Below, piece after piece: positions 3,301 to 54,270 of a DNA stretch of 64,000 nt. The notes beneath the pieces were generated by a model, which did no database searches, was not told the DNA's origin, and was given only the letters and a program-made list of their open reading frames with translations. The position numbers were made by a program, and so were the translations under genes. Position 1 is the stretch's first letter. Each line of letters starts with the position of its first letter. This stretch comes from Malachius bipustulatus. Lineage: Eukaryota > Arthropoda > Insecta > Coleoptera > Melyridae. The DNA is taken from positions 22,700,268 through 22,764,267 of the forward strand of contig OU342639.1 of NCBI GenBank assembly GCA_910589415.1, written 5' to 3'.

Positions 3301-6300
3301 TGTAAAGTGAAAAGAAAAGAGTAAATCTTTATTCTAGATTCAAAAAATCAAATAATTACCGTAAAGATTTATGACCCTGATACAAGATTTGACTATTAGT
3401 GGGATCTCCTGATTGGTAGTTTCCAGGTACTCCTCCAGGGAGCCACCAAACAACTTAGGCTGTCCACCCTGTGCCAGCCTACCTATTCGCTTCCGCCTGG
3501 GTGTTTTAACAATCGGCTTCAGAGTTCCTATATATTCAGGTACCTCAGCCAAAAGCGATTGGCGTAGGTACTCCTGCTTGGCATCTAGTCTAGCTATTCT
3601 TGTAGAGCCAAGAAGATACTCCCGGAATTTCTAAAACAGAAAACACTGTCCACTGTTACCATAACAAACAAGAAGACTACTCACCGATAAATAAAACTCT
3701 TCAGTCTCCTGTCTGTCGGCTCTCAATTTTATAGCGACCGTCTCTGGTGGCTTACTGGCAGGTAAGGAGCTATCACCAAAGTAACCACTGCAGTCCCAAT
3801 CTTTGGCATTGAGCATCTCCAGTAAAGTACTCTCGGCTGTTTCTAGGGTCTTCCAGATCTCCTCAGACTCGGCACGTAGGGTCGTCAATCTTTGCTGTAG
3901 CTGTGATAACCTAGTCTCCATCTCCTGATGGAGAACTTTCTGAATTTCTGGTTCTGGTGGCTGGTAAATATAAAAACTTTATTAACCCAAATTTACACTA
4001 AAAGACGTAGATTATAATAACATATACCATAACCTCAGTATCTTTTGTAGTTAAATAATGTCAGATCAAAAAGATCAATAAAACAAAATAATTAAGAGAA
4101 GTCTGGCACATCAAGTTATCAAGCAGGTAATAGGTATGTTTACTTACATCTTCTCCCTTGTGTCCTTGAAATTCAAGCTTTTTGGGTATCATGAAAGCGC
4201 TGTGATTGCATTCCAGGAACCGTTGTTTATCCAGTCTGGAGTCCAGAGAATTGATACAAGTTGAAAGAGCCTCCATTCCAGTTTGTACTGATTTCTGCCT
4301 GCCTTCTTCTGCAGATACATGCATTAGTAAGGCTCGTGATATACAGTTGTGAAATCCGAAGTCCATGCACTAAAATTCATTGTAAATTCTTAATCGATTC
4401 TTGATTCTCACCAAAATTTAAGAAGCCTTACGTCAATTAAATCAGATAAGTCATCAACAAAATATTTATGAATAGTGGTATTGGAAGCTTCTAAACATAA
4501 AAGATATTCGTTCCTAGCTTTAAGGGCTTTTAGTTTTGCGTCACTGTACTTGCTCTTGCGCTAGAAAATAGGTAATTACAAAATTTAATACGACTTTTAA
4601 AATTTCACTAGGTAGGGGTAGGTACCTTCATCACTTCCTTTTCCATTAGTTTATACTTCTTAGAGCGCTCCAACTTATCTTGTGAGAGTGCTTGTTCTAA
4701 TTTGGTGCGTTGAGTTTCGGCAGATCTCAATTTTGCCTCAGCCTGTCTAAGTTCTGCTTGATAACTGTGATATGTTTTCATAGTTGCGTGCAATTCTTGT
4801 AGAACTCGCAAGATTTCCTCGTGTGTTTCATAACCAATTTCGCGACACTAAAAAATTTCAAATTCACATTACTCGAAGCTAAACAGAAAATGCGAAGAGC
4901 CATACCCTCTTGTATATCCGCTGCACATCTTCCATCACTTGCGACAATCGCTGAATCAAATGATTTGAGTAAACTTCAGATAAAGCTACATGATCACGAC
5001 TAAGATTTTTGGTCTGGGTAATTAGCACTTGCCAACAAGCGTAACTCGAGAATAACGGCCATTGTTCCCTCCTAGAAAAAAAGAAAAAATATTTTATTTT
5101 TCCATTAATTAATCTTAATTCCTGGTTGCACGAACGTAATAAAAATCTGTCAGAAATTCGCCGATCTTAGAATATTTAGTTGTCAAAATATTGGTCTGAT
5201 ATTGCTGGAAAAAGAGTTAGGTAATTACATACAGATAAAAAATAAAATGTCAAAATATGCAGTTAAAAATTATAAATTATCTGAAATATTTTTAATTAAG
5301 TTCGTGCAACCGGGCCTAAGTTTATTATAAGAAAACAAAAGAGTCCAGCTTGCGCGGTCAAATTTAAAGTGTTTCTAACCTAGAAAACAAATTCACGAGT
5401 TGACCGTTTGTCTGCTCTACTCGCGCTGGCGCTGGCGCTGTATCCGGCTTCAGATACATACTTTGGAATGACGCGTCGCGCACTGTTGCCGGTGTTAACC
5501 ATTATTACCCATCATTTCGCCAAACAACTTCAGTTTGATGTTAATGAATGAAAAAATGTAATCTCAACAACAACCTATTATTTGTCAGGTCATATTTATA
5601 TTCTATTGAATTTATTGGTATCTAATAAGTCTAGTCCCTATGCTTTACTGCTTCTAAGATAATTTTCCCGAAGAGATTTAGTTTCTAGTTTGTACTTTTT
5701 TTAGGTACCTAATTATAATAGGTAGGTACCTAATATACAATTAAATAATAATTATAATATATAATCATTTTTCTCAGTACCTAATCAATTTCAATTAGGC
5801 ACCTCGAACTCCGTTATAAGGAATACAATTTATATTCTTTGTAATGTTAAATAAGCAATAAAATCACATAAAAATGATTTAGGTAGTTATTAATACAAAA
5901 GCAGCCCCCTTCTTCTGTCTCAATCATTTGCAAATTCAACCTGATAACACTGTGTGCTTGACTTATGGTAGCCGGTATGGTAGATTCCATATTCTAATAA
6001 TAATACAACAGGGTAGCGAAATATTACGCAATTTTATGAAATTTAATTAACAAAAAACACCCACAATTAATTATTCTATAAAGTCTGGTAAAAATATATT
6101 TAATTTTGCTCCATCTCTTTCACAAATCTGATCGATTTAATTTTTGTCTTTAATAATACATTAATATTTAGTCTCATACACATTACAAAATCATATGTAA
6201 GTGTTTTCCCGCAAAAAAAAACTTATTGTCATAGGGAATTGTCAATTAATTACAAAGTCAAGTATAGTGATGAACTGTATAATTAACAACCGTGACTGGT

Positions 6301-9300: not shown

Positions 9301-12300
9301 AATTTTCTATATCCATATTTTAATTCATTTTCAAACGAATTGAAGTGAAATTTTCACAGTAAAGAACTACGCGCATGTGATATAACCATGAAAAATTACA
9401 GAAAGTTGATTTAAAACATGGCGACAATATTCATAATTAAATCGCATAAAAATACATATTTATGCGATTGATGCGCAAGACGATTGTTTAAACTTATTGA
9501 GAATCGGAAACAAACTTTAGGATAACTTCCGTATACAAATCTTATTATTTTTTGTAGGTTTATTTACATAATGTCGTCATTACCTATCCACTTGACATTT
9601 AAAAGATTTTTGAACCCGACTGGATCCCGGAGTTTCCATAGTCAACTTTTGTTTTCCCTATATATGGCCCTATAGGTATTGTGTTTCCATGTCAATCCAT
9701 GTCTAAAAAAAAAAGATTTAAATTGGATTTTTGGTTTTCTTGATTTGTTTTAGACCGAATGACATGCAAAAACAGTGTGGTAGCCATATAGGAAAAACAA
9801 AAGTTGACTATGACTATGGAAACTCCGGGAAGTTGACTTGGACAATTTTTAAAATGTAAAGTGGTGATCCGATTCAATAATAAGAAGGTTTACTCTGACA
9901 AACAGACAGCTTCAGAAATGAGAAGGTTTACCTTAGAGCAGGACTTTACTACCATTTGGCAGGACGAGAACCGGGGAGATCATTTCCCCTGAGGTCCACC
10001 AAGACGGTTTTTCAAGCAGAGGTATCTACAAGCAGCTAGAATGGAAGAGGTAAGAGAGACAACGAAGCAGGTAATTCATTATATGTATCTGATTCGACAA
10101 CCAGGTTGTCTATGTATCTCAATGATCCAGGAGTACGCACAAGAAAACTGTACAGATTGTATGCGTTCCACTAGAGAAAGAAAAGTTTTATTAACCGCAC
10201 CCCTGTTTTGACGAATGGAGATTGGTTTGACGCGCGAAAGGTCTTATAATCGCAGATGTTACGGAATCGATTCAAAAGGGCCCATAAAACTGTGTGGAAC
10301 AAAGACTTCCTCCTAACTTACGCGGCTGTATGAGAGGCATACACAGTAGCCACAGATTCAACATCTTTGGATCAAAGGTACTTCCGCGGTAATAAGGTAT
10401 ATCCGCTCGTGCAAAATACCCTCTGACTCTTATTAAAAGGTCGAGAAGGTTCGAGTATCGGGTCCAACTATTGTTTTTCAAACACGATGTGGTATCAACA
10501 GGACGGTGAGTCAATCGCAAGGGTTGAAATAGAAGAGTCATGCAGCAATTTTAATGGAAAGTGAATAGGTGATGAGATTACCGAGGTTGACCAATTAAGA
10601 GTTGCCTGAAAGATTGTCACATTTCAGGGATCTATAGAATTATTTGCTCAAATTGAATTCTGAAAACGGATTTAATTTTTTGCTTCGTGATGTAAACTAC
10701 CCAGTACCTATATTAATTAATTGAGGCGTGCAGAGTTTCAAAACTGTCTAAATCCATCTTAAGTCATTTTACAGAAAACACGAATTTGTTATAGCGTGGA
10801 TAAAGCGCTATAGAAGGTTATTCTCAGTAAGAAAAAAAAATTGGATGATTTTCAGTCGAGATATTTAAAAAAAACCTTTGGGTATGAATAGTTTTGCAAG
10901 AGTTAGGTACAGTGAGAATAAAAAGTTTTACTGGCTAAATGTAAAATGTTTTTCTACTCTTATTGAATGTGTGTCCAATTATTAGAGCTTTTTGGATAGA
11001 TTATGAAGGTTATTATTCGTAGGTATTGAATTATAGTTCATAATACCCGGCTCTTGTCCAGTCACAGCTACTAGCATTTCATAATACCCGCTCATCCGTG
11101 GACCAATCAAAAGCTGTAAATTTGATAAAAAGAGCAAAGCTGTGAATAGGAACGATAAATGACGTTTCTCAGAGTCCACGCGTGCGCAATCGGTACTCGA
11201 TACTGGAAGTTGTTCCAAGCAGTAAAATAAATAAAAAAATATTTTGATTAAAATTTGTTTTATATAAAAGAGTAGAAAAAGCATATTGCATTCACGATTA
11301 TAGCCGTTATTTACTTGATGATGACAATGCCACTCGCTATTTATCATCATCTCGTGAATAATGGCTTCATAATAGCTCATATAATAAAATACTATTATTG
11401 GATCAAAAGCTCATAATATACAATTTTGGGTAAAACAAAACACTCAAAAACACAAAAACCACTTCTTGCATTAATGCCGCTTCTTTTAGGCTACAATAAT
11501 ACAAATTTTAAAACGTCGTTTTTACTTGTGTGAATTTAATGCCCTGTTGTGAATGTAGGTAACAAGTTTTGAAATCAAAACGCCCTATTTTAATTACATT
11601 GAACATAAACAGTTTTGAAATAATATCTTATGCATGGAAATACAATTTTGTTTCAGTATTTAGGTATACTCTGGATAAAACCGGTTCTGCAACCGGTGCC
11701 ATTATCACATTTTTTTTGCATGGAAATGGATATATGTAGACAGTTTCGAAACAGCACGTCTCAATTAGTCTGGCACTTTCGGCTACGTGTATTTCAATTA
11801 TTAAAGAGAAAAAATATTAAGTGTAAGTTCAACTTCCGGGCAAAACGGTAATGCCAAAGCGATGGCATAATAACTGAAATTTGCGTATCTCAAGCAAAAC
11901 CTCTCTTTAATAGATAGCTCAATGAACCAATAAAATATTCTTACCAATTAGGGAAGGTCGGGAAATCACTGCAATATCAATTATTAGTTTTTGAGACTGA
12001 AAATTAAAGACGAATATGAAATTGTCTGTGGAATAAGGTAAGCGTGTGGAGGCAACGAAGGTTCCCCAAAACACAGATACTGCTGCCAAAAGATTCCTCA
12101 CAGGATGGAGTCATGTTACCGTAAAGCTTCGAGACGGTTAGGAAATTATCTCTGGGACTTCTTTGGAAATTTAAGAGAGGGCCCTCTGACAAGAAGGGAT
12201 GGTGCTGAAGACACGAATAACAGGTGACTAAGTGCTCTGTTTTATAAAGTGAGCTAGTGAAGGTAAATAAGGTTCCCCAAAACACTGAGGGTCACTGCTG

Positions 12301-15300
12301 TCAAAGGATTCTCACAGGATGGAATCATGCTACTGTATAGCTAAAACCTATAAAGGACGGTGCAGACGATATTATCGTATTAGTCTTAGAAAATATACCA
12401 GGACAATCAGACTTCTGGTTTGAACATTGGATTAGTGATGTAGGCGGCGAGTGAAGTGCAATCCCGCTTTACACCAAAAATATGGAAAATTGATGAGGTA
12501 AATATTCCTATTTTAATCAATAAAAACTGTACCACAAGCAACCACGTTATTGAATTTTTTTATTTCATTTTACTCTACATTCTACAATCAAGAGATCTGA
12601 TACTTTTAATTAATAATTTCATTTTCAAATTAAGCTTCAATTTTGAATAATGATGACGATTTTATTATACTGAACGCATCCATATCATAATCCATATATC
12701 AGTTACATAATTTTATTTTTTTATGTCCCATCACTATACATTTCCACCACTCTGAGGCGTTGGTTATATCCGTCCTTTCTTCGCTTGGCATCCGTAGTGT
12801 AATCTTCAGTTTTCGAGTTCAACATTTTGTGTTAATGAAGAAAGAGTTTTAAAAAAGCAAAGGAAATCCAATTTTTATATTTAATCGCAATTTTATTGTT
12901 TGTGTTGTGGCATTGGTGTTAAACATATAGAGGAAAGTGCAGAACTGAAAAAATTATTTCAATTTCTTGGCGTGTTTTAGAAGAAAGAGTGCATATCATC
13001 ATGGAAGATAATAGAAATTTCAACAAAACTATCCCTGCAACAAATGTCTCCGTAAGTTGAATATTATCTTAACTTGAACATTATTATCTGGCAATTCTCA
13101 TAAAGCTATATTCATATTTTTTTAAATCTGTAAATTAAAGAACGTGAGCCCGTCCCGATTGTGTAGATTTTTCCTGATTAGGTGACACAAGCTACCTCCT
13201 ATAATAATTATACAATGCAGTCTTTCAACTATAATGAAGCGTCATCATACGGATATCCGATTTCTGTTAAATTGGAATAAAGTTGCACTATTTTATGCTT
13301 TTCCTAAATTTGATTAGAAATAACAAATTTTACAAGGATTTCCAAAATCTCGGGTTAAAACTAAAATTACTCTTTTTGAAAAATAATATTTCTACACCGT
13401 CTAAGATCTAGGGGAATTGAATAAAACTTTGTGATTTTGTGTTACCAACTACTGCAAAAAAAATTTCTTCTCCCTCTATAGATTTTCCAGCAACACTACA
13501 CCCAACATTGTTATTTCTTATGGCCGCCATATTGGATTTTTAATTATTAAATAAAGATAAAAAATTCCTAATCCGTGATACCCTAACCCTAAAGCAACAA
13601 GTATGTAAAAACACATTAGTTTTTTGTTTTAACCATCAGTTAGGGAATCCAATAGGTAACGTATCTATGTACCAAATCCGAGATGCCCATTGACTGATAT
13701 GCCGATTAAATTTCATTACCATGATTGAAATCTTGGTAACCATGGTTTTAGAAAAGTTTTGATTTTGTATATGATTTGTCGGTATTTCTTTGTATTAGGA
13801 ACTTTTTCCTCTATTTAATGATTTAAAAATCAAATATGGCGACCATATTATAAGACTAACAAAGTTGACTGTGGTGGCTTAAAAACATTTGTTATATTTC
13901 AAATTAGATTTTGGAAGAGCATAAAATAGTGTAACTTGACTTCGATTTAACCGAACTCGTATTTTTTATAGTTTAGTATTATAAGTGACCCTATCCCTAT
14001 GGTGATCCGTTGCTTATTAGTTCTTATTTTACACTGTCTGAAGTATGTGACTCAGGAATTTGTTATTACTAAAGTGATAAGCACATTGTTGTTATATTCT
14101 CGTTCCTCAGCAACCACTGGTTCCTCAGCAAGCACTGGTTCCTCAGCAACCACTGGTTCCTCAGCAACCACTGCTTCCTCGTCGACCGATTCCCCGGCGA
14201 CCAGAGGCAAATGGAACAGAAACAATAGCGCTCGACTTGACCATCTCCAGACCTCCACAACGCAGATCTTCAGGAAATGTCAGGAATCGTTCCAATGTAC
14301 GTATAAACCTTGTATGTGTTAAATTTCGAACATGTTCCTAGTGGACAAGAAATTTGTTTTTACTAAGGTGACCAAGTATATATTGCTATTTTATTTTATC
14401 CTCGTTCCACAGAGACCACCTAGAAATCAAACATCAACAGCTGGAATAGCGAGGGCCGTCTTAACGGTCCGTAGACCACATTACAGATATCCAGGACATG
14501 CTCGTGTACGTATTAAACCCCTGTATGAGTTGTATGTGTTAAATTCTCTGTTGAAATAAATCCTAAATGTTACTAATAATATGTAATTATTATAATTAGA
14601 CGAATTTAATACGACGAGTATATTCTTATTTTATTGTGGTTCCACAGAGAATTCAGAGAAATGATGTCCCAATGGAAAGGGCACGCTTATTACGTCATGT
14701 TACCGGACGTCCAATTCAAGTTGGGTCAGGTCACGAAATTGTAGGAAATCCTGTTGTACGTATTATATCTTGTATGCATAAAATTTGACGTATTCGCTTC
14801 ATTTTTTGTTAGACAATTGATTTTGTCCATTTGGTGGACAAAAATTTTTTCGACACTTATAAATGATGAGTATATTCTTATTTTATTGTGGTTCCACAGA
14901 GAATTCAGAGAAATGATGTTCCAATGCAAAGGGCACGCTTATTACAATTATTACGTCATGTTGCCGGACGTCCGATTCAAGCTGGGTCAGGTCACGAAAT
15001 TGTAGGAAATCTTGTTGTACGTATTATATCTTGTATGCATAAAATTTGGAATCAAAATAAGTCCTAAAAACTTTTGACGTACTTCGCTTCATTTTTTGTT
15101 AGACACTTATGTTAGGTGATGAGCATATTCTTAAATTATTTTCGTTTATAGAGACCTCCGAGAATTGCTGCCCCAAGGCAAGCAACTAACAGAGACTCGA
15201 GCAGAGGAGATTATATCCTATATGGGAATCCTCATGTACGTATATGTATTATATACCCTTGTTGGCATTATTTAATTTTTTGTTAGACACTGTGATCCAT

Positions 15301-18300
15301 TCTGTGGACAAGACATGAAATTTGTCGACTCTTAGGTGATGGATGAGCATTATTCTTATTTTATTCTCGTTCCCCAGAGATTTCAAAGCGCCCCTACCCC
15401 CGAGCCTGCCACAAGGCAGACGATGACTTTAAATCCCACCGGATATCTAGATTTCGGATTTATGGGAAATCATCTTCTACCTAATGAGGTATTTACCCTT
15501 GTGTGCTTTAAAGTTGGAATTGAAATTACTCATTATAATTATTATTGGAATTAGATTATTATATTTTATTCTCGTTCCACAGGGATTCCCATTTAATCAG
15601 GCTCCTCAGGCTTCATCAGGGCAGGTGACTAACTCCAGACTGCAAAATTACGGAGTTACAGGAAATCGTAACGTACGTATATATGTATAGACCCTTTGAT
15701 ATAATTATACGTACTCATTTAATTTTTTGTTAGGCACTGTGATCAATTCTGTGGACAAGTAACTTGTCCACACTTCGGTGATGAGCATTATTCTTATTTT
15801 ATTCTCGTTCCCCAGAGATTTCGAAGAGACCCTAACCCCGAGCCTGCCACAAGGCAGACGATGACTTCAAATCCCACCGGATATCTAGATTTCGGATTTA
15901 TGGGAAATCATCTTCTACCTAATGAGGTATTTACCCTTGTATGCTTTAAAGTTGGAATTGAAAGTACTCATTATAATTATTATTGTAATTAGATTATTAT
16001 AATATTTTATTCTCGTTCCACAGGGATTCCCGTTTAATCAGGCTCCTCAGGCTTCATCAGGGCAGGTGACTAACCCCAGACATCCAATAAATTATGGAGT
16101 TGCAGGAAATCCTTTTGTACGTATACATATATGTTTACACAAATTGTTATAATTAGACGTACATTTAATTTTTTGTTATGCACTGTGATCAATTCTGTGG
16201 ACAAGTAACTTGTCCACACTTCGGTGATGAGCATTATTTTTATTTTATTCTCGTTCCACAGAGATTGCCGTGTAACGCTGCTCTCCAGAGCGTCCCAAGG
16301 AACGTAACGCTTAGAGAGACCCCTGGACCCAAACATTCAGGATCTAATGTAAACCAGGTCGATGTATGTATATAACCCTTATAGTTCCTAAATATTCCTA
16401 ATTATATAATTAGACGTATTTCATTAAATTTTCGTGATCCATTCTGTGTACAAGAAACTAGTTGACACTTAGGTAAAAACGTTTTCTTATTTTATTCTCG
16501 TTTCACAGAGGTTGCGGAGCAACTCTGCTCCCCAGGACGGCCCAATGGAGATGATAGCTATAGATCCAGGATCTAACGAGAACCAGGCCGATGTACGTAT
16601 ATAAATTTAATTTTCGTGATCCATTCTGTGGACAAGAAACTAGTTGACCTTGACACTTAGGTAAAAAGCGTTTTCTTATTTTATTCTCGTTTCACAGAGG
16701 TTGCGGAGCAACTCTGCTCCCCAGGACGGCCCAATGCAGATGATAGCTGTTGTAGATCCAGGATCTAACGAGAACCAGGCCGATGTACGTATATAAATTT
16801 AATTTTCGTGATCCATTCTGTGGACAAGAAACTAGTTGACACTTAGGTAAAAAGCGTTTTCTTATTTTATTCTCGTTTCACAGAGGTTGCGGAGCAACTC
16901 TGCTCCCCAGGACGGCCCAATGCAGATGATAGCTGTAGATCCAGGATCTAACGAGAACCAGGTCGATGTACGTATATAAATTTAATTTTCGTGATCCATT
17001 CTGTGGACAAGAAACTAGTTGACACTTAGGTAAAAAGCGTTTTCTTATTTTATTCTCGTTTCACAGAGGTTGCAGAGCAACTCTGCTCCCCAGGACGGCC
17101 CAATGCAGATGATAGCTGTTGTAGATCCAGGATCTAACGAGAACCAGGCCGATGTACGTATATAAATTTAATTTTCGTGATCCTTTCTGTGGACAAGAAA
17201 CTAGTTGACACTTAGGTAAAAAGCGTTTTCTTATCTTATTCTCGTTTCACAGAGGTTGCAGAGCAACTCTGCTCCCCAGGACGGCCCAATGCAGATGATA
17301 GCTGTAGATCCAGGATCTAACGAGAACCAGGTCGATGTACGTATATAAATTTAATTTTCGTGATCCATTCTGTGGACAAGAAACTAGTTGACACTTAGGT
17401 TTAATTTAGATTTAAAATAAGAGTTTACTTATTTTATCCTCGATCCACAGAGATTGCGGAGCAACTCTGCTCCCCAGGACGGCACAATGCAGATGATGGC
17501 TGTAGATTCAGGATTTAATGAGAATCAGGACGATGTACGTATATAATCCTTATACATATGTGTTAAATTTGAAATCGAAATATATCCTAAATATTACTAA
17601 TTATAATTATTATTATTATAATTCGACGCATTTTCGTACGACACCGTGATTCACTCTGCGGATAAGAAAATTGTGGTTACCTTGATGGTTACCCAGTTGA
17701 TAAGCATATATTTTTTATTCTTGATGGCCGTCTTGATGCTCGGCGTACATCTCGGCGTACATCATCATCATCAAATTGAGCAGGATAATTGTGTAGGTTT
17801 ATGGTAGGCTATAGTATGTGTTACACTTGGAATTTTAATATACCTATCCCGAATATTAATATTACTTTAATTATCACAACTATTACAAGACGTATTTTAT
17901 TTTAATTGATGCCCGTTAGTTTATAGGCACTATAATAATAAGAATCCTTATGCAGAAAGAAAATGTGTTGTTCAATTTGAGTCATAAGAAGGTTTCATAC
18001 TTTTCCATTGCTGTTTAAATTTAATTCTTACAGAGGTATAAATAATTTCAAATAAAAAATTAAAGAATATCATTTCGGTAGCGCAGTTTAGTAGTAGTAA
18101 GCTTGCGTCTGGACAGAATGAGCGACTTTATCTTACCTACATAATAGTTAAAACCGATGTTCCCACCTTTAAAAAAAGTTTGAAATAAATTAAATTCGAT
18201 TTTTTTTTCAGATAAGCTATACAATCGAAGTAGAGGTTCCTGGTCCGCCCGTCAACATTGCTATCGTGGTACAGGTTCCTGATCTCGCCAATAAAGATAT

Positions 18301-21300
18301 TACATTCAATCTTAAATATACGAAAAAATAAAATGTTTTATGAAAAATGTTTCCGAATAGGTAAACATGTAAAACTGACCCTTTTTATTGAGTTTCATTC
18401 ATGAAAGATAAGTTTAATTTCAACAGTAAGGATGGGCAAAATAAGTACCCAAAATGTTAGACTGTAAGGCTTGAGATGAGAAAAAAAATTTAAACTTTGT
18501 CATCAATGTCGATCAACAATCAATTCTTCGCTTTAGGCACTGCCAATCAGTCAGGTTTTTGATAAGTATTAAGTGTTAATAAGTATTATTATATTATTAG
18601 TATAAAATATAGTATGTATAAGTATGTTAATACTGCCCTGCAAAGAGAAAAAGTTCTATATGTAAATGAAAATATGTCTGATCATTATGTGACCTATTCT
18701 GAAAATTGATAAAAACATCAAATGTCCGACCTACTTATAGGCACTATTACATAATCTAATTTCAGAGTCGCTTCACAATAACTTCGAGATATCACAAAAA
18801 ACTAGTTATCGTCAATTTTTTTTTTCAAAGTTGTAAATACGACCTTTTGACTTCACAGGGCAGGATAAGTATTAATAAGTATTGATAAGTCGTCGTCAAT
18901 TTCACGAAATGACGTACCTAGCTCAGCTTTGCAAAATTTTACAGGATAAAGTTTTTCCTTGATTTCAACTCAGCTTTAATAAAAAAACTAAGAGGTTTTC
19001 TTTTTGTTTTCTTTGTATATTCAGAGATGTTTAAATTGGTCTTCTAAATGCATTTCAGCCCCCTGATATAGATTTTTTGTATTTTTTTACCTGTTTGTCT
19101 CTAACAAGGGACAAATCAATTTCGTGAACTATTAGAAACAATTAAAATTCAAATAATTTCAAATCATCATTATCATCAAAATGTTTCAATCAAAATTGGT
19201 AAGAGTACATGAAATATCAAATATACTTATGAAAGGGTTAAAAATGTTCATATAATTTTCATAATTTTTATTAATTATGAAAAATTACTTCGTAAAATTG
19301 AAAAAAAATAAAATTTCGATTTTTTTGAGTTACGTCACTCAGAGATATTGACTACGAAGAAATAAGTACATATCAATATACAATTAGTAATAAGTCTATT
19401 GTAAGAAAATTTTTTAGTATTGCTTTATTTTGCAATCAATTATATAAATATATCATTTTTTGAAGAATTAAGTTTTCTGTATTTTTTTCTATAAAAAACC
19501 TTCAATCATTTTTGTGCAGTGTAATGTAATTTCTCTGTCTTTTCAAAGGTTTACACCTATTAGACAGATTTTCTAAATAAATAAATCAACAAATAAATAA
19601 AAATATAAATAAAATCAATAACATTTGTGAAGACATTAGTGTGACATTATATGACCAGTAATAAACAATATTTTATTTTAAATAATTATTCATAAATTAT
19701 TGATAAAAAAGTGCTTGTGATAAGACAATAAAAAAATTTGATGAAATATTGGGGAGTTGATATAAAAAAGTGGCGTTCTCGCTAATTTGCCTATGATGCG
19801 TGAGCAGATAAGGGGAAATTTTAGTCACCATCTTTTTTGTTTTTGCTTTTTCGAAAAACAATTTTTCGATATTAAATTTCTTCCTTACCTAATGTACTAC
19901 ATACTAAAGTGTTACCAGAAATAATTTTCTCAGGTAATATTTGTAAAAGTCACCCGATTTTTATTATTAAATTACACTTATAGTAGCGTAAAAAATTCAC
20001 CCCTCGCTTTAATCCCCTCAGTTTGACACTTATACCACACCTAAATTTTCAAATGGGAAGGGTAAGTTTGTGACACCTCATTCAATTTATTTTAAATATT
20101 AATTTTTGCAGTAAATTCGAAAAAAATATAATTTTCGTATAAAGAGCGAATAACCTTTAATTTTTTTAAAGCCCCTACTCCCTTAAAAAAAAATAGGAGT
20201 CGCAACTGTTTCAATTTGTAAATTTAAATTAACAAAATTTAAAAAATATAGCAAGATCTCTTCAATTTTATGAATTTATACATAATAAATTCAAAAAATT
20301 TGATTTAAACCGGCGTTTCATAGAACATTACCTGAAAAAACTTCAAAATACATTAATGACATTCTAGTTCCATTAATTGTACACTTTTGTTGCCTATTTT
20401 AGTATTTTGTTCCGAAACTTTGGGTGCGTTCCGTTTTGTTACAGAAGTTACAGATTATAAAGTTTATTTGACAAAGAAATTATAGAAAGAAGAAAAAACC
20501 TATACAGGGTGGGCCACGGTATACGAAACGGAAGATTATGGCCGTGTCTCTGGATTTTAGGATCTTTTTACTTTTGGAGTGGATAGAGACCCGGCAGAGG
20601 TACGTTTTTAAATTATATTCATAATGTTAGTGTCCCAAAAGCATAAAACATATCAAAGTTATGTTTTTTTAAATGGCATGCTCCTATGTTATTGCATTTT
20701 TAGATTGTCTGAAAAAAGAAAATAAGATTGGCTTTTACAGTTGGTGTTTAAATTCAGCAGTTTTTGAGTTATAAACAAGTGAAAATCGTCATTTTTCAAG
20801 TTCAAGGCCCTGTACAGGGAAAACGGCTTAAGATAGAGAAAAACGGCTTACATGTCCCTATTTTAACTTTTCATGTACCCTATGATGTAGATGAAATGTT
20901 TATACAGGGTGATAAAAAATTTGAAAAATTCTGAGATTTCTCCACGCGTCGCCAAATAAAAAAATCAAAGAAAGCACAAATGTTTCTATACCATAGGATA
21001 GTACATAAAAAGTTAAAATAGGGACATGTAAGCCGTTTTATTCTATCTTCAGCCGTTTTCGTTGTACAGGGCCTTGAACTTGAAAAATGACGATTTTCAC
21101 TTGTTTATAACTCACAAACTTCTGAATTTAAACACCAACTGTAAAAGCCAATCTTATTTTCTTTTTTCAGACAATCTAAAAATGCAATAACATAGGAGCA
21201 TTCCGCATTTAAAAAAACATAACTTTGATATGTTTTATGCTTTTGGGACACCCTGTACATTATGAATATAATTTAAAAACGTACCTCTGCCGGGTCTCTA

Positions 21301-24300: not shown

Positions 24301-27300
24301 GAGCGATTTATGAGTTATAAACAAATGAAAATCGCGATTTTCCATTTTCAAAGCAGCTTATATTGAAAACGGCTCGAGATATGGAAAAACGGTTTACATG
24401 TTCCTATCTTAACTTTTCAAGCGGTATCCTATTGGATGGATGAAATTTTTATACAGAGTGGTAAAAAATTTGATTATTTTCATCACCCGGTATAAAAATT
24501 TCAGCTACATGATAGGATACCAAATTAAAAATTAAGATAGGAACATGTAAGCCGTTTTCCTCTATCTTGAGCTGTTTTTAAGAAAATCTGCTTTGAAAAT
24601 GGAAAATCGCGATTTTCATTTGTTTATAACTCATCTCGTAAATCGCTCATTACAAACTTCAACTTTACAAACCATTCTTTTTGACTTTTCTCAAATAATC
24701 TGAAGATGTAATAATATAGAGGGTGTCCTATTTAAAATAACAAAGTTGTATGGTTACAGCGATATTGGACCGTATTACAGCGGACAGCGGTATCTGAAAA
24801 TAATTTCACAAACTGCACTTTACCCTCCCATTTACAGCACTTTTTGGTTCATTTCGATATCTTTAATGGTATAGGTGCAATCGAGCTTTCCCATATCAAT
24901 GACTCACCCTGTATAAGATAATTTTATAATCACTAGTCATTTTTCTTCGCCAGCGAATTGTCTCCAGTATAAAATCTTGTCAAAAAAACTCGATTTGCTA
25001 AATGTCGCCAGCAATTTATTTTTCCATATATCTGTTTCCCCAATAAATATCATTTTTTTCGACAACACTCTGCTATTTTTTACGGAATCAGATTTTAAAC
25101 CGATTACTCTATAGGTACAGGGTGATTAAAAAAAAGTGGTCCCTTTGCTCCTTGCTAAAATAGAATAAATAAATAGAAGGTATAGAATTTTTTATAATAC
25201 CCTCTGTATCTTGAGTAGGGATACCATTACGAAATTCTTTTACTAAAACAAACCCTACGTATTTTTTATTGTATTTTGATATTTATTGATTAGTGCAAAA
25301 CTTGTCAAATTCACTTAAAGTCGCACCTACATACATTTTGAATTTTCATGTCATTCTGTATTAATAAAAGAAATAAGGAAACCAAAAATCTATCACATTA
25401 AAAAAAATCTTCAAAATTTTATCCTTTTTTTCAAAAAAAAACCTTTACTCAACCGAATGTCATAAAATAACCATAAGTCAAGCAATGTCACGTGATATTG
25501 CAACGTCGCACGACGTCATTCGGTGATAAAACTTTCTTTTTTTCTAAAAAATAAGAGGAAAATTTTGAAGAATTTTTTTTTTAATGTGGTAGATTTCCTT
25601 GATTCTTTTAATACAGAATGACATGAAAATCCAACATGCCGGTCATAAGAAAAACGAAAGTTGAGACGGGTTGCGGAATAACAAAAGACGATTGAGACCT
25701 GTCATACAAGCTATCTTATTCGTCTTAAAACACAGCTGTCAAATTAACCGTTTCGGATTTACTTGCGAAAATTTAAATCCAGGTGTAATAGGAACCGAGA
25801 TTCCTGTATAGAGAAGCGATTCTAAGGACACTCTGTATACGTAATGAGTACTTTTTAAAATTCGAAAAAAAAGTATTAAATTAAAATTCAAAGTTTAATA
25901 ATTAAAAACAAGAATAAATATTTTTCTGGAATATTTATAAACATAAAAACTCGATTTAGAATCCCATTCCGTTAAAAAATACAGGGAGTATTTAAAAAAG
26001 GTAGCTTTTCGGGAAATAAGTGGGCTATGGAAAATTTTGATACGGTTTTTATAAAATGAAGCTTTTCCATTATCTTCAGAATTTCATCAGACATACGCTA
26101 CAATTTAAGTCAACATCACACAGCACTGTCAGAGAAAGGGGACAGGCTTGCCAGATTGTTAAATGATTCAACATCTACTCATTAAAGGTTTACTTTTTTA
26201 TTTTAACAAACTGTTGGACCTAAATTTTGAATTTTGAGCTATCTAATCAATATGATTTAATCAAAATGATGGAGTTGTCAAAAACATTACTATTGTATAC
26301 ATTGACCAATTAAGTTTGATTTATTGATGGATTGATTGATGGTGTACCATTGTTTTCTTTTAATTTTTTTTTCTTTAGAATTTTTTAGAACTATTACTAT
26401 TTTGGGTAATTGTTTACATCCGCGGCTTTTAAGTTTCATCAATTTTTTCGGGACCGAGGAGCGAAATAGGAATGCTGGGTGGGTAAGAAGCTAAAAACAG
26501 CCATTGCAAACTAATATCAAGGTTACCACCACTAAGGCCTCTTTGGCACTACGGTCGAATTTCTATTTTTTTTTTTTCACTTTCAGGGCAAGGAATATCT
26601 TCGAGATTAACAATAGCACAGTTTTTTGAATTTTGCATTTATTTTGCATTTATATTCCAAAACACATGACATCGCTCGCTATTATGGTCCGACTACGTTT
26701 GAATGCGGTTCGTATGTTGCGTATATTACCAGACCGGCCCTGGTGTTGATTATACGAGTTTTCGGCCCGCTTTAATGTTTATTCCGTCCACTCGACACTC
26801 TGATCTTACATGTTTATTGTGATTTTCGGTGTTCTAAACAGGTCCGCACTCAGGAAGACCTTCTTTTGATGCCCTTTTGTTCGCTTATCTTTCATTTGCA
26901 AAGCAAATTAACACCTTCCTGGTGTTACTATAGGTATGTTCTCCACCCCTATATAGGTGCCATAGTGAAACTGTAGAAGCCGCGGATGTAAATAATGACC
27001 CTTTTGATCACCCTAGAATACTTTTTATTCCGCCCAGAAAATAATCTCCTCAGCTTATTCACGTAAGTTTGTTGGTATAGGTTATCATTTTTATCGCGTT
27101 TTTCATACAAACATTGAAAGGTTTGAAAATATTTGGCAATATGTACATTATGTATGTATGTATTTAGAATATTGTATTTGAAAAATTTAGGCATTATTTG
27201 AAATATTTGGAAATATTTGGAGCAATATGTATTTGGAAATATTTGGAAGTAGGTATTTGAAAAAATGGACACATTTCGAAATATTTTGACACTATTTTGG

Positions 27301-30300
27301 CAATGTTTAGAAATATTTCGCAATACTTATGTACTTGGAAATATTTTTTTAAATGGCTATACTTGGAAATACTTGGAGATATTTAACAATACTTGGAAAT
27401 GTTTGGCATTATTTGGCAATACTTGGAAATACCTGGAATTATTTAACAATACTTGGAAATATTTGGAAGTATTTGGAAATATTTTAACACTATTTTGGCA
27501 ATTTTTGGAAATATTTGGTAGGCAATACTTATGTACTTTTTTTTGGCAATTTTTGAAAATATTTGGTAGGCAATACTTATGTACATGGAAATATTTGAAA
27601 ATTTTTCGCAATACTTGGAGATATTCAACAATATGTACTTGGAAATATTTGGCAATACTTGGAAATATTTGGAAGTATTTGGAAATATTTTAACACTATT
27701 TTGGCAATTTTTGGAAATATTTGGTAGTCAATACTTATGTACTTTTTTTTGGCAATTTTTGAAAATATTTGGTAGGCAATACTTATGTACATGGAAATAT
27801 TTGAAAAATTTTCGCAATACTTGGAGATATTCAACAATATGTACTTGGAAATATTTGGCAATACTTGGAAATATTTGGAAGTATTAGTATTTGGAAATAT
27901 TTTAACACTATTTTGGCAATTTTTGGAAATATTTGGTAGGCAATACTTATGTACTTGGAAATATTTGAAAATTTTTTGGCAATACTTGGAGATATTCAAC
28001 AATATGTACTTGGAAATATTTGGCAATATGTACTTGTAAATACCTGGAATTATTTGGCAATACTTGGAAATATTTTAATAATAATAATAATAATAATACA
28101 CTTTATTGCCCAACAGATTGAAAAAATCCATTTACAGGACAAAATAACATTTGAAAATACAACAACAGTATTATGTATTATATCTTATATCACTAGAGAA
28201 CAATTATATTGATATTATAAACATCAAAATTTATAAGTTTCAACAATACTCTGCCTTATAACATAATATGAGAAGAAAAAAAAATACAGAAAAAAATGAA
28301 GAACAACACAAGGATTGGTCCCCCCCCAACTACAAACCCCCTTCAACCCTGTCAGCTATGAATCCAACACTTGTTTGAAAGCGCTTATTGACATGTGGAA
28401 AATGTCGCACTCGTCACTGATCTCATTGAACCATGAACACATTCTGAAAATGGGCGACCTGACAAGGAGATTCGTCCTGGGTGTCGATAAAACGAATGCC
28501 TGTGGAGTACGAATACCAGTGCGTGGAATTATTGGAAGTATTTGGAAATATTTTAACACTATTTTGGCAATTTTTGGAAATATTTGGTAGGCAATACTTA
28601 TATACTTGGAAATATTTGAAAATTTTTGGCAATACTTGGAAATACTTGGAGATATTCAACAATACTTGGAAATATTTGGCAATACTTGTAAATAATACTT
28701 GGAGATATTCAACAATTCTTGGAAATACCTGGAATTATTTGGCAATACTTGGAAATATTTGGAATAAATACATACATATTTGGAAATAAATTTTTGGCAA
28801 TACTTGGAGATATTCAACAATACTTGGAAATATTTGAAAATTTTTGGAAATACTTGGAAATACTTGCAGATATTCAACAATACTTGGAAATACCTGGAAT
28901 TATTTGGCAATACTTGGAAATATTTGGAAGTACATATTTGGAATAAATACATATTTGGAAATAATTTTTTTGCAATACTTGGAGATATTCAACAATACTT
29001 GGAAATATTTTGAATTATGTGGCAATACTTAGACCATTTAGCAATCCGACCTACGTTCTTCATGTTCATCAGTCAGGTGAGCGCGCCATGATCTGTCGAA
29101 AATAGAAATTCCTACCTAGGATACTACTTTACTGTTCCTGGTCTGGATTTATTTAAAGCTTCTTTTCAATGTCACAAAAACTCTACTTTCTTTTTCGATA
29201 ACGAACACTTTTATGAATTCAGCCTCAGGTTAGTAGCTCAAAAACGTATATCGAAAATTTAAATTTCCCCAAAATCGAACGACATCGTCAAAGTATACTT
29301 AGGCAAGTTTTCCAAGTCAACCCTCGCAGTACCATCTCCACCAGTCTTTCAAAGGTAAGCCAAGCTGACGCCTTGCTTAGACCAAATGGCATAATGTGCT
29401 CTTGATGTACCGCAAGTCGTTCCATCTTGTTGAATCCAACTGTGTTGAGGTTGGTGCGTCCGTCTTCCTACTTCTGACAGGTATAACCTATCATCAACCC
29501 ACTTTCATTAAAGTATAAAGACTTTTTGATGCAGCACCCATGTAATCCCATTTTTGAAAGAAATGCATTGAAATGGTTTCGAAATCGTCGTTATATCAGC
29601 ACTAGCAGCATATAATGAATGACCCCTTTTCAATGGAGGTGTTGAAAACAAACACGCACGATGTGATTGCATCCGTTAAGGGATAGATTTCAATAATTCC
29701 AAAAACATTCGGTCCAATTATTCAAAAACACTATACATTCTTGCGGAGCCCTGTGTATCCGAGTCATTACTGCAGGCCTCTTATAGAAAACTTTTTTTGA
29801 TTTTCAATATTTTGATCTTTTTTGAAAATACATAAATTTCATGATATTCGTCAGCAATTGATATTAATGTTTCGCATGAATGCGATTATTATTAGCTTTA
29901 CCTGTCATCATCATGCAGATAACTCGAGTTTTATTATTGATCATGAAGGTTGATATTGATGATATTTGACATAAAAAATTGGCTCAGTTTAGTATTCACT
30001 TTATACAAACAATAAAAGGCTTGTCGATTTTACGTTAAATTCCATACAGGCACGAATCAAGGACGTTTTAATTATGTAATTAAATCACCAATCATCACTA
30101 TTGTGGGTATTATTTAGTCATATTAATTGACAGAAAACTGGTGTTTTAAAGTTAATATTAGATCTGACAATTGTTCCAACATATTTGCGTATTTCATATT
30201 TGCTGTATGAGATTAAAGACAAAGCTGTATTAATTAAACTGTACGGCTTTAGGTTAGATAACAAACATTTATATATGTGGGATAGTTGCAACTAATTTAA

Positions 30301-36254: not shown

Positions 36255-37590
36255 CAGGGTGGAAATTTAATAATGGAATATTAAAACTAAATAACTTACC
36301 AGAAATTCAAATATCGCCAGAAAACGTAATAAAAACGTCTGATTCTTATTAGCAAATGTTCAAAATGTTATCGTGTACACAACGAAAGTAATCTGCTATC
36401 TGTCCAATTGCTATCTCAAATTTTTTATCTTGTCTATCTAGAGCGTACCCTGTATCATTAAGCGTTTTTTACAAACTGCAAAATTTTGCGGTGTGGCAGA
36501 TGAATTTTATCATTTCCGTTTTATTCTCAATTTTCTTCAAATAATTTCAAACAATTTTTGATCTAATAATGCGATACTTAACTGAAACTCTGCGAATTGA
36601 AATCTTAATGATGATTAGGTATGGTGACATGTGCCGAAAACAGGCACAAGTTGTTCACTTATTTAATAAAAACATCCAGATTTACCACCACTAACTCAGG
36701 GAACTGTGTCTAAGCGAAGATAACATTCACAGTTTCCATATGGACACGTTAAACCACTGCCTAGTTCCTAGGAGACCCAAATTTGTTGAAGATGATGTAA
36801 AACTCAATATTTTATTGACTTTTCAAGCAGAACCAACAACTTCTACCCGTCAAGGTGCGCGTGAAAATGATGTTAGTCAATCAACTGTTTTCCGGGGTCT
36901 GAAAAATGAGAAAATGCATCCATATAAATTACAACACGTTCAAGAATTGATTGACGGTGATTCTGATAGAAGACTGCAATTTTGCGAACAACTGTTGGAC
37001 ATGTTACATAGAAATATTATTTCTTCTGAAAACATTCTGTTTTTCGACGAAGCGACATTTCTTTTAAATGGCGAAGTAAATAGACAACATTGCAGATACT
37101 GGGCCGCAGACTATCCTAACTTGCTGCGACAAACACACACTCAGCGTCCTTAGAAATTGAACGTAAGGGCTGGTATTATCGGTGAGCACGTAGTGGGACC
37201 TTTTTTTATAGAAAACTTAAACGGTAGGGAACAAGTTGTCCCATTGCTAGTAGAATTGTATCCCAATGTAATAGAACCAAATATTCCCCATGGAAGGATA
37301 TGGTTCCAACAAGACGAAGTGGTGCACCGCCCCACTTTGTTGTTCAAGTACGGGAATATTTACACGAAGTCTTACCGCAAAGATGGATTGGACGAAGAGG
37401 ATTCTTAGAATGGCCCCCCAGATCACCAGATCTTCCCCACTCGACTTTTTTCTTATTACCTTAAAAACAAGAATGGTGAACATTTTGAACATTGACTATA
37501 AAAATCAGATTTTTATTACATTTTCTGGCCACATTCGAATTTCTGGGTAAGTTATTTACTTTAATATTCCGTTATTAAATTTCCACCCTG
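36255..37590 (+). mobile_element. mariner-type DNA transposon, 1336 bp, inactive
   Basis: Termini CAGGGTGGAAATTTAATAAT and its inverse, each flanked by TA (36253-36254 and 37591-37592), the target duplication of Tc1/mariner elements. The size is typical of a mariner. It contains a broken transposase gene (see next entry). Confidence 0.82.
36600..37500 (+). pseudogene. mariner transposase pseudogene
   Basis: The N-terminal helix-turn-helix is visible as ILMMIRYGDMCRKQAQVV with a stop after it. The central part (36740-37153) carries DDVKLNILLTFQAEPTTSTR and the first catalytic Asp in ENILFFDEATF, then EVNRQHCRYWAADYPNL. A TAG interrupts it at 37151-37153; the frame continues KLNVRAGIIGEHVVGPFF and IPHGRIWFQQDEVVHRP (second catalytic Asp), and after a frameshift there is RWIGRRGF and EWPPRSPDLPHSTFF (third Asp). 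It resembles transposases found across insects with the HTH plus DDE_3 arrangement. Inactive. Confidence 0.85.
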
Positions 37591-51756: not shown

Positions 51757-53912
51757 ATACAGGCTGTTGCTTGGCTCAGTAATGACGACTTGTCGATTTT
51801 CTTTTAAATAGGACACCTGTATATTATTGTATTTTCACATTTCCTGTATGAGAAAATCCAATAAGAATGGTTGTTACAGTTGCAGTTTAAAATGAGTATG
51901 TTACAAATGAAAATCGCCATTTTTCATTTTGAAATAAATGAACAAATATCGCAAAACGGCTTACATGTCCCTATCTTAACTTTTCATTTGATATCTTACA
52001 GTGGTACTAGAAATTTTTATATAGGATGATGAAAACTATCAGATTTTCCGTCATCCTGTATAAAAATTTCATCTACGTAATAAAGATAAAATAGGAACAT
52101 GTAAGCCGTTTTCCGAATATCTTGAGCCGTTTTTAATGTAGGTACCTATACAACTATGAAAATTGAAAGTAGCGTTTTTCATAACGTTTGTTTATAACTC
52201 ATTTTACACCGCAACTTTAAAAATCATTCTTATTGGATTTTCTTTGGATTAGTAGTAGTATGGTGGGTAGGGGTGGTACACCCCAAGCGACTAGGCCACC
52301 GAGGGCCCTTTTCGCCTTACCCGAACCATGGTGAAACTCCTACTCGAACCTCCCCGACCTTTTAATAAAGGCCAGGAGGTTGTTGTATGAGAGGAGTTTC
52401 ATTTCTTCCTCTTGTAGCTCCTCAGACCCAAAGATGTTGAGCCTGAGGTTGCTGTATACCTCGCATACGCCCACATAATGGTGGGAGTCCTCGTCATCCA
52501 TTCCGCATTTAGGGCAGACCGGGTCCCGAGTGACCCCCATCACTTGCAGGTGTCTGTTCAGACTGCTGTGACCGGTGAGAACCCCGACTAGTAGTCTGAG
52601 TTCCTTCCGGTTCATTCTGGACATGCTGGTCCATCTGTTTCCGATCGGACCAGCCAGAAACAGCCTGGCCTATCTGCAGCCTGGTGCTGTTTCCCAGTGG
52701 TTCTCTAAACCCTTGCGAGTCCATTCTTTTATAGATTCTTTGAGAAGATTTTTGGTCAGACCCAGGACGGGCTCCGGCCCACAAAAGGTTTCCCTGGTCC
52801 CGAGCTTCGCGTATTGATCTGCTAGCTCATTACCTGGTACACCTGAGTGTGCGGGAACCCACACGATATGCACCGATTTTCTGTCCGCCAGTCTGTTCAG
52901 CGTCTCGACACACTCCTGGACCAGTGGGGAGCTGGTTCCGTGTGTGCCCAGCGCTTTTGCGGCGGCCTGACTATCCGTGCATATGTAAATCGTCCGTTCC
53001 CTGGCTTCTGTTATCTGCTCCAGTCCAGCTGCTTGCAGGATGGCATAAATCTCCGCCTGGAAGACGGTTGCGGTGGACCCAAGAGGGTAGGATCTTCCCA
53101 GTTTCCGTCCAGCCAGGTAGAGCCCCGCTCCTACGTGGCCATTTTTGTTCCTGGAGCCGTCTGTGAAACAGACTAGTCCTCCTGGTTCGAAGGCTACCTC
53201 CCTTTTTTCCCACTTTTCCTTTTCAGGAATTTGCAGGGTAAATTTCTTGTTTTCTCTGTTGTTTCTTGTTTTTGAGGTAGACATAAGGTTTGAGATTGGT
53301 ATCTCCATCTCGGCAACCTTGGCTATCTCTGTGTGTCCTTTGTAACCTCCGCCTTTCCATAGTCCCGAATCACGCATTCTTAGGTGGGCCGCCATGGCCT
53401 CCCCTTTTATCCAAATGGGAAGCGGTGGCAGCTCCAGAATGACATTCAGGGCTGCTGACGGGGTGGTTCTCATTGCACTTGTTATTAGCAAACTGGCGAG
53501 CCGTTGGAGTTTAGCTAGCCTGTTTGCAACGGTATTGCTTGTGGTTGTTTTCCACCAGACCACCGAACCATAACTGATTCTCGGTCTGATGATGGCCGTG
53601 TATAACCAGTGCATTATCTTCGGTTTTAGCCCCCACACCTTGCCTATTGTCCCTCTTAGCTGCCATAGAGATGACACAGTTTTTGTGACTATTCTGTCAA
53701 TCTGTGGCTTCCAGGTCAGCTTTTCGTCTAGTACCATTCCAAGGTATTTGGCCTCCCCACTAAGAGTTAGGAGTTTGCCAAACAGCCTGGGTGGTTTGAA
53801 TCCTCTTTTTTCCCTTTTCCTTGTGAAGAGGACCATTCTTTGGATTAAATAAATTAAAAAAAAAATAGACAATGTTCTAATTATAGAGCCAAGGAACATC
53901 CTGTATAATTTT
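51757..53912. mobile_element. foldback element 9, split by a LINE insertion
   Basis: Left outer part (51765-52240) has GGACACCTGTATATTATTGT, GAGAAAATCCAATAAGAATG and the family core (AACGGCTTACATGTCCCTAT). The matching right half begins at ATTCTTATTGGATTTTC (52227) and resumes after the LINE at 53848, ending AGCCAAGGAACATCCTGTATA. The half after the insertion lacks part of the expected arm. Confidence 0.7.
52252..53835 (-). mobile_element. 5'-truncated LINE (R1/LOA/jockey-like), ORF2 C-terminal half
   Basis: Minus strand. Translation from 53835 starts inside the RT thumb region (LGMVLDEKLTWKPQIDRIV, WGLKPKIMHWLYTAIIRPRI, SYGSVVWW) and proceeds into an RNase H domain with catalytic residues in FTDGSRNKNG, FQAEIYAI, CTDSQAAAKAL and a final ADQYA. 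A one-base shift near 52680 moves the frame; the tail then reads NRKELRLLVGVLTGHSSLN and a Cys/His knuckle CPKCGMDDEDSHH...C before a stop at 52340. The element ends in a (TAC)n-like tail. The 12-bp word TTCTTTGGATTA at 52240-52251 and 53836-53847 is its target duplication. Confidence 0.88.
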
Positions 53913-54270
53913 TTTACATTAATAGAAAGAAAATTAAATTATAAAATTGACCTGTTGTTAATTTTTTTCTAAACTCAAAATCTAGGGAGTTATTGGAGGG
54001 TACCGGGACTTTAAAGAATTTAGCATTTTGCAGGAGTTTACATGTCCCTACATGATCTTTTCAAGTTCTATTTCATGGAAATGAAAAATTACCAACACCG
54101 AGAGGCCAAAAATTCTAATTCTTCGGCTACCCTATGCTCATAAAGTAGTAGCTCATAGTTTTAAGGGGCACAGCTTTGCTGCTCTTGAACTGTTTTTCAA
54201 GCTACATTCCCATTTACCCATTTGTTTTGACATTTAAATTTTGCAATAAAAAGAAAAATATATTCTAAAG

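Follow-up and report, generated by a model that had tools for sequence, protein, structure and literature searches.

A predicted gene of 18 exons lies on the plus strand at 13001-18331 of a 64,000-nucleotide stretch of Malachius bipustulatus DNA (C17:22700268-22764267; this whole stretch is called the window below), and further copies of its parts were sought in the 544-Mb assembly of the host genome. The gene consists of a first exon (13001-13051), sixteen internal exons of 84-186 nt (14111-17534) and a last exon (18212-18331), each in phase 0 and a multiple of three in length, which together amount to 1776 nt, or 591 aa and a stop codon. Enumeration of acceptor/donor pairs yielded the same 18 exons that a first-pass annotation of this DNA had proposed, with the same positions, phase, divisibility by three and open internal exons. 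Because all exons are in phase 0, the frame is preserved under any gain, loss or skipping of an exon; the thousands of protein variants envisaged in that annotation are a possibility that the architecture allows and not evidence in itself.

The gene is located antisense to srGAP, flanked by two srGAP exons that are separated by 26 kb. The F-BAR exon of srGAP occupies 31508-31323 on the minus strand and the next srGAP exon matched by tblastn lies at 5055 on the same strand, with a few residues in between lacking a located match; a small unmatched srGAP exon may lie within the minus-strand intron stretch (5056-31322) that hosts the gene. The nesting in a srGAP intron had been recognized at first pass, and the antisense orientation is added here. 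A query of 653 srGAP residues, assembled from minus-strand pieces of the window, matched 1374 proteins at E <= 0.001 (7995 scored), 120 of which were listed; among the best 34 of these 120, 32 were named beetles, with 71-78% identity (BLASTP). In a tree of the window sequence and 34 proteins chosen from the 120 listed, each trimmed to 900 residues, the window fell inside a 30-row group (27 named beetles) with support of 100/100, its placement within the group being poorly supported. Judged by these srGAP matches and this tree, the window DNA is that of a beetle.

Coding capacity and composition of the predicted protein

Coding statistics were calculated on eight non-redundant internal exons (2, 3, 4, 6, 7, 8, 11 and 12), the other eight being close copies of them. 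These exon families are open in frame 0, and stops accumulate in the other plus-strand frames (14 and 13) and in the three minus-strand frames (13, 16 and 14). GC content at codon positions 1, 2 and 3 was 0.587, 0.524 and 0.367. In dinucleotide shuffles the probability of an open exon was 0.15-0.36 for each family, with a product of ~1e-5, and openness together with the divisibility of all eight lengths by three had a probability of ~1e-9, both values applying to splice sites that had been picked beforehand. Close exon copies differ in length by 9, 3 and 3 nt, and the frame is kept each time. GT-AG ends are present in all 17 introns; the introns had been described as full of stops, which is true in all three frames for 15 of the 17, and introns 4 and 7 each have one stop-free frame. 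Upstream of the first exon a TCAGT motif occurs at 12806, which resembles the arthropod initiator, and an AATAAA overlaps the stop codon of the last exon. Its coding capacity speaks for a real gene, which is presumably transcribed. An additional candidate terminal exon follows exon 1 at 13182-13280, with an acceptor-like tttttcctgattag, a phase-0 open frame VTQATSYNNYTMQSFNYNEASSYGYPISVKLE and a stop overlapped by AATAAA, although it may be due to chance.

The predicted protein is nearly devoid of lysine. Of the 535 residues encoded by the internal exons, 1 is Lys and 55 are Arg, and shuffling of bases within codon positions gave a mean expectation of 23.5 Lys, with none of 5000 shuffles as low as 1. 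For the eight families alone, 1 Lys compares with 11.8 expected (again 0/5000 shuffles as low), and the depletion is specific to the frame, as the same families contain 1 Lys in frame 0 and 9 and 15 in the other two plus-strand frames. For comparison, the host srGAP pieces hold 41 Lys and 45 Arg. Lysines of the predicted protein are found near both ends and once in exon 11, leaving Lys-free runs of 362 and 207 aa, and the longest such run among the 120 fetched srGAP proteins is 159. Lysine deserts are frequent in disordered proteins, and arginine in one of them drives speckles (PMC10169902). Further biases are an excess of Asn (z 4.5), Gln (z 3.05) and Pro (z 2.4) and deficits of Lys (-3.7) and Thr (-2.65), and only one Cys is present in the 591 aa.

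The product is predicted to be mostly disordered, FoldIndex, a crude measure of disorder, being below zero in 420 of 541 windows; together with its composition, this agrees with the earlier description of a disordered Pro/Arg/Gln/Asn-rich chain. Net charge is +27 over exons 1-11 and -16 over exons 12-18, giving +11 in total, a layout that is descriptive and carries no test, exons 12-17 being copies of one unit. The first exon (17 aa, MEDNRNFNKTIPATNVS, donor GTAAGT) is hydrophilic (GRAVY -1.06), and hydropathy and inspection revealed no visible signal peptide or hydrophobic start, as also noted at first pass; likewise, no missed signal-peptide exon was noticed when the 5' region was read by eye, no predictor having been run in either case. 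The last exon (39 aa and stop) encodes a hydrophobic, beta-prone cap that was predicted on its own, from a single sequence, as two strands with pLDDT 73, which is weak evidence.

Duplication of exons and introns

Alignment of block copies substantiated the claim that many internal exons, all on the plus strand, are local duplicates. Exon 2 (14111-14296; 62 aa) is Pro/Gln/Arg-rich, has a net charge of +6 and holds an 18-bp tandem repeat, and exon 3 (14413-14505; 31 aa) has a net charge of +7. Exon 4 (14648-14755; 36 aa) and exon 5 (14900-15016; 39 aa) are block duplicates, with 197 of 214 aligned bases identical and 76 gap columns, exon 5 being longer by 9 nt in frame. Exon 6 (15152-15235; 28 aa) is followed by a two-exon block of exon 7 (15378-15488; 37 aa) and exon 8 (15583-15672; 30 aa), which is repeated as exon 9 (15816-15926; 37 aa) and exon 10 (16024-16116; 31 aa, 3 nt longer in frame than exon 8). 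The two copies, each comprising both exons and the introns after them (15378-16261 in all), are identical at 409 of 436 aligned bases, and the same block is arrayed on another contig, C16. Exon 11 (16262-16363; 34 aa) carries the only Lys and the only Cys among the internal exons. Finally, a tandem array of six ~186-bp exon and intron units (16423-17546) contains the acidic exons 12 (16509-16592; 28 aa, net -3), 13 (16698-16784; 29 aa), 14 (16884-16967; 28 aa), 15 (17067-17153; 29 aa), 16 (17253-17336; 28 aa) and 17 (17451-17534; 28 aa), the last being the most diverged copy; neighbouring units are 83-99.5% identical. Thus, copies arose as one-exon and two-exon blocks, and recent block copying is evident from the alignments; all cassettes may have descended from one unit, with crossover in introns as the probable mechanism. 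Downstream of exon 17, a decayed copy of an intron start (17815-17874; 72% to intron 17) and an acceptor TTCTTACAG followed by AGG TAT AAA TAA with AATAAA close by (18028-18060) are candidates for ghost cassettes or an alternative end.

Donor and acceptor sequences resemble one another across introns 2-16. When intron interiors were compared, likeness was clear among introns 4-6, 8 and 10-16, with many pairs far above shuffles, and also between introns 7 and 9. Short 5' stretches of introns 3, 5, 7, 9 and 11 match intron 17 (80-95% over 20-77 bases), which links the two intron sets, and a GTGGACAAG-type element present in other introns is missing from introns 3, 5, 7 and 9. By this comparison of interiors, a view that all introns are homologous was too strong and was replaced by the statement that most introns share sequence. 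In introns 8 (15673-15815) and 10 (16117-16261), a perfect inverted repeat, GTGGACAAGT..ACTTGTCCAC, was also observed.

Fourteen of the 16 internal donors are GTACGT or GTATGT without G at -1, and their predicted U1 duplexes are of -3.1 to -3.5 kcal/mol, compared with -5.7 at the donor of exon 1 and -5.8 at those of exons 7 and 9. Introns 11-16 (16364-17450) contain an internal CUGUG(G/U)A element complementary to their own acceptor, the element-acceptor duplex being -11.8 to -13.8 kcal/mol versus about -6 in shuffles, and in predicted folds of five of them (11, 12, 13, 15 and 16) the element pairs with the acceptor. For introns 10-16, 0-3 of 200 shuffles reached a duplex energy as low as that of the real sequence, and for introns 7 and 9 the number was 7-10 of 200; no such signal was seen in introns 1-6 and 8 (38-170 of 200 shuffles as low). 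It is speculated that weak donors and the acceptor-complementary element favour exon skipping in this gene.

A proposed disordered scaffold and its alternatives

With moderate confidence, about as much for as against, we read the locus as a young, lineage-restricted beetle gene for a disordered, Lys-poor scaffold that is tuned by exon copy number and perhaps by exon skipping. Such a gene would be transcribed opposite to srGAP from inside a long srGAP intron, and its first and last exons, found only here, would frame sixteen frame-neutral cassette exons derived largely from serial tandem duplication of intron and exon units with breakpoints in introns. The product would be of ~65 kDa, mostly disordered and probably intracellular, with a nearly Lys-free chain rich in Arg, Asn, Gln and Pro that is basic in its first two-thirds, acidic in its last third, which comes from the newest cassettes, and closed by the short beta-prone cap. 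Its most likely role would be that of a multivalent scaffold or condensate-type protein, in which Arg might serve as the binding side chain and the avoidance of Lys might keep ubiquitin and other Lys modifications off the protein. Length and net charge would depend on the number of cassettes, as given in the genome and perhaps as altered by skipping that weak donors and self-paired acceptors promote.

The distribution of copies in the host genome bears on this reading. For the last exon one candidate was scored, and it occurs once in the genome. The exon 12-17 unit has its full match only in the window, C16 matching only the intron end (16 of 16 candidates scored). In a search with 13001-16116, for which 40 of 127 candidates were scored, no second copy of exons 1-6 was found; among the scored candidates, the parts recurring outside the locus were 13263-13975, a repeat with inverted ends that makes up most of intron 1 and occurs on many contigs, and 15270-16111, the exon 7-10 stretch, which recurs on C16 only. 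Many contigs carry relatives of the 13263-13975 repeat in inverted pairs, whose members are often separated by ~2 kb.

At C16:16478000-16510300 copies of the exon 7-8 block are arranged in two tandem arrays, of 8 and ~6 copies and ~26 kb apart, in which 16 and 11 open exons were found with nearly all splice sites and frames intact; the exon B that follows those counted has an altered acceptor. The array copies are ~99% alike, and the C16 unit differs by 1-3% from block 7-8. The gene's other exons were not recognized in 50 kb of C16. In blastn with window 11001-20000, every match at E <= 1e-4 fell within the arrays, and nine gene peptides run by tblastn against the rest of the 50 kb gave weak matches only (best E 0.004). 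Among seven open reading frames (ORFs) between and beside the arrays, five had matches, to LTR-element polymerase/integrase, envelope-type proteins and a TNP-like transposase. One 677-aa open frame between the arrays (L010:5652-7685, minus strand) matches a Monjiviricetes viral fusion glycoprotein at E 9.9e-171.

These arrays, young, close to block 7-8 and surrounded by mobile-element ORFs, suggest another explanation, in which the blocks amount mainly to tandem-repeat DNA, selfish or neutral, that is still open because it is young, and the cassettes are passengers of a real gene, spliced in because they are symmetric. The near-neutral replacement rates between copies are in line with it, but those internal exons that are older and unlike one another are all open too, and they show a GC content that varies by codon position and a strong, frame-specific avoidance of Lys. 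Moreover, the C16 copies (14 of exon A and 13 of exon B, copy 14 of exon B having been dropped) show 5 replacement and 7 silent differences from their majority, with four silent differences falling on the same shared codon, and 2 of the 5 replacements create Lys, compared with 1 Lys per 535 residues in the gene, although the sample is small and some differences are shared by descent. We consider this explanation unlikely.

Several observations weigh against the scaffold reading. Frames are likewise kept in the C16 arrays, where no gene is visible, so that open frames of young copies alone prove little. In 19 exon pairs compared for replacement and silent changes, all with small numbers, pN/pS was 0.64 (exons 4/5), 0.69 (8/10), 0.42-0.58 (17 versus 12-16) and 0.92 (11/12), exons 7 and 9 are separated by 5 replacements with no silent change, and pairs within exons 12-16 show replacements only. 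In their interiors, introns 2, 3, 7 and 9 bear little resemblance to the main set (intron 1 was left out). The srGAP donors with which the U1 duplexes were compared were placed only approximately, and their values range from -1.7 to -12.1 kcal/mol over 10 sites. The acceptor-pairing copies in introns 11-16 are not independent; fold energy was no better than in shuffles for five of six introns, and the sixth, intron 10, folds well (7 of 200 shuffles as good) through another hairpin. Conserved intron RNA structure was rejected on these folds and because none of seven predicted pairs has changes on both sides.

Divergence between recent copies is near-neutral and proves neither selection regime. 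Compared with pN/pS, the frame-specific Lys avoidance is the stronger sign that the protein matters. Diversifying selection, raised by introns that are alike beside exons that are not (6 of 55 pairs flagged), was rejected since the pattern is partly due to block duplication with intronic breakpoints, notably for exons 9 and 11, and pN/pS is never above 1 where silent changes exist.

A broader version of the scaffold reading would treat the locus as a combinatorial cassette-exon gene that evolved independently in a beetle, with skippable exons, skipping of the acidic array guided by an intronic element pairing with the acceptors of its own and neighbouring units, a large family of Lys-poor scaffolds of graded length and charge, introns as recombination sites and satellite-like growth seeding arrays on other chromosomes; taken as a whole, this is decidedly unlikely. 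Similar doubt attaches to a fast-evolving reproductive orphan of testis or accessory gland, with cassettes gained by sexual conflict or neutral drift: orphan status, intron nesting, high Arg and weak constraint would fit, but a protamine-like protein is ruled out by a net charge of only +11 over 591 aa. A secreted effector or immune-type gene of the flatworm micro-exon gene (MEG) or hemipteran bicycle sort, diversified by splicing against a host plant or microbe, is very unlikely: it would account for many small symmetric exons, weakly constrained and lacking detected relatives, but the first exon is hydrophilic, the published bicycle gene-structure classifier scores strongly negative (below), and the host is a beetle, neither aphid nor flatworm, so that the lead to plant-feeder effectors given in the first-pass annotation is not upheld. 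A decaying or never-functional chance chain of exons is highly improbable, since a partly decayed unit after exon 17 is outweighed by coding statistics, Lys avoidance and intact GT-AG ends.

New relative to the first-pass annotation are the lysine desert, the division of charge into basic and acidic parts, the shared intron sequence and the C16 arrays of exons 7-8. Because the locus combines exon copies of several ages with a block that has spread in a satellite-like way to a second contig, the path from tandem repeat to protein innovation can be tested on it, and a lysine desert built cassette by cassette offers a clean case for asking why proteins avoid Lys. Elsewhere in the window, a minisatellite with a ~10-bp unit TATTTGGAAA occupies two stretches at 27175-28929 within the srGAP intron, a retroelement-type RNase H ORF lies at 52670-53938 on the minus strand, and a Tc-type transposase fragment under the Pfam cut-off lies at 36695-37153 on the plus strand.

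Relatives and comparison with known systems

No relative was found at E <= 10 in a protein collection with many annotated beetles, either with words from the first 500 residues (7994 candidates) or with a second query of 241 aa from 8 of the 18 exons (166 candidates scored), and these searches gave no orthologue for checking the lysine desert between species. The joined protein had two Pfam matches below cut-off (Rax2_2, E 0.0074; Clostridium_P47, E 0.021); NCBIfam gave none for the five exons queried, PDB sequences none for the last exon and Rfam none, and a viral-contig scan gave five pattern matches, none confirmed. No beetle counterpart was found in literature surveyed mostly through titles and abstract openings. 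Within these limits, the gene may still be called undescribed.

The bicycle genes (PMC9168663), known from aphids, phylloxerids and coccids, resemble the beetle gene in their many small internal exons of the same phase and in being fast-evolving and hard to detect by sequence. Membership was rejected, as the beetle gene has 16 of 16 internal exons in phase 0 rather than phase 2, a linear score of -89.4 in the classifier (probability ~1e-39, cutoff 0.72), which remains -17 when phases are set to 2, one Cys in place of CYC motifs (the need for two Cys being taken from the motif's name), no signal sequence noticed, and a host that is a beetle by the srGAP tree and no hemipteran.

Schistosome MEGs (PMC4350168) share small symmetrical exons making up most of the coding region (16 of 18 being internal here), skipping that would yield near-identical variants, and the lack of relatives found outside the lineage. 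The beetle gene differs in its many recent tandem copies and in exons of 84-186 nt, which are small rather than micro, so that the first-pass term "micro-exon" does not apply; membership was also rejected because no signal peptide is visible and MEGs are restricted to platyhelminths. If expressed, the gene would represent a further independent origin of genes with many small same-phase exons, beside flatworm MEGs and hemipteran bicycle genes, and its different phase from the latter and lack of a visible secretion signal would imply that this architecture is not tied to secreted effectors.

Tandem cassette-exon genes such as arthropod Dscam (PMC4835542) likewise contain arrays of duplicated exons within one locus, but neither a domain nor a relation was found for the beetle gene and nothing in it points to mutually exclusive exons. 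The lysine-desert proteins (PMC10169902) are similar in having a long Lys-free, Arg-containing chain, and the beetle protein, mostly disordered by prediction, falls within their definition; it differs from them in that no ubiquitin-system domain was found and in that its desert is made of duplicated cassettes.

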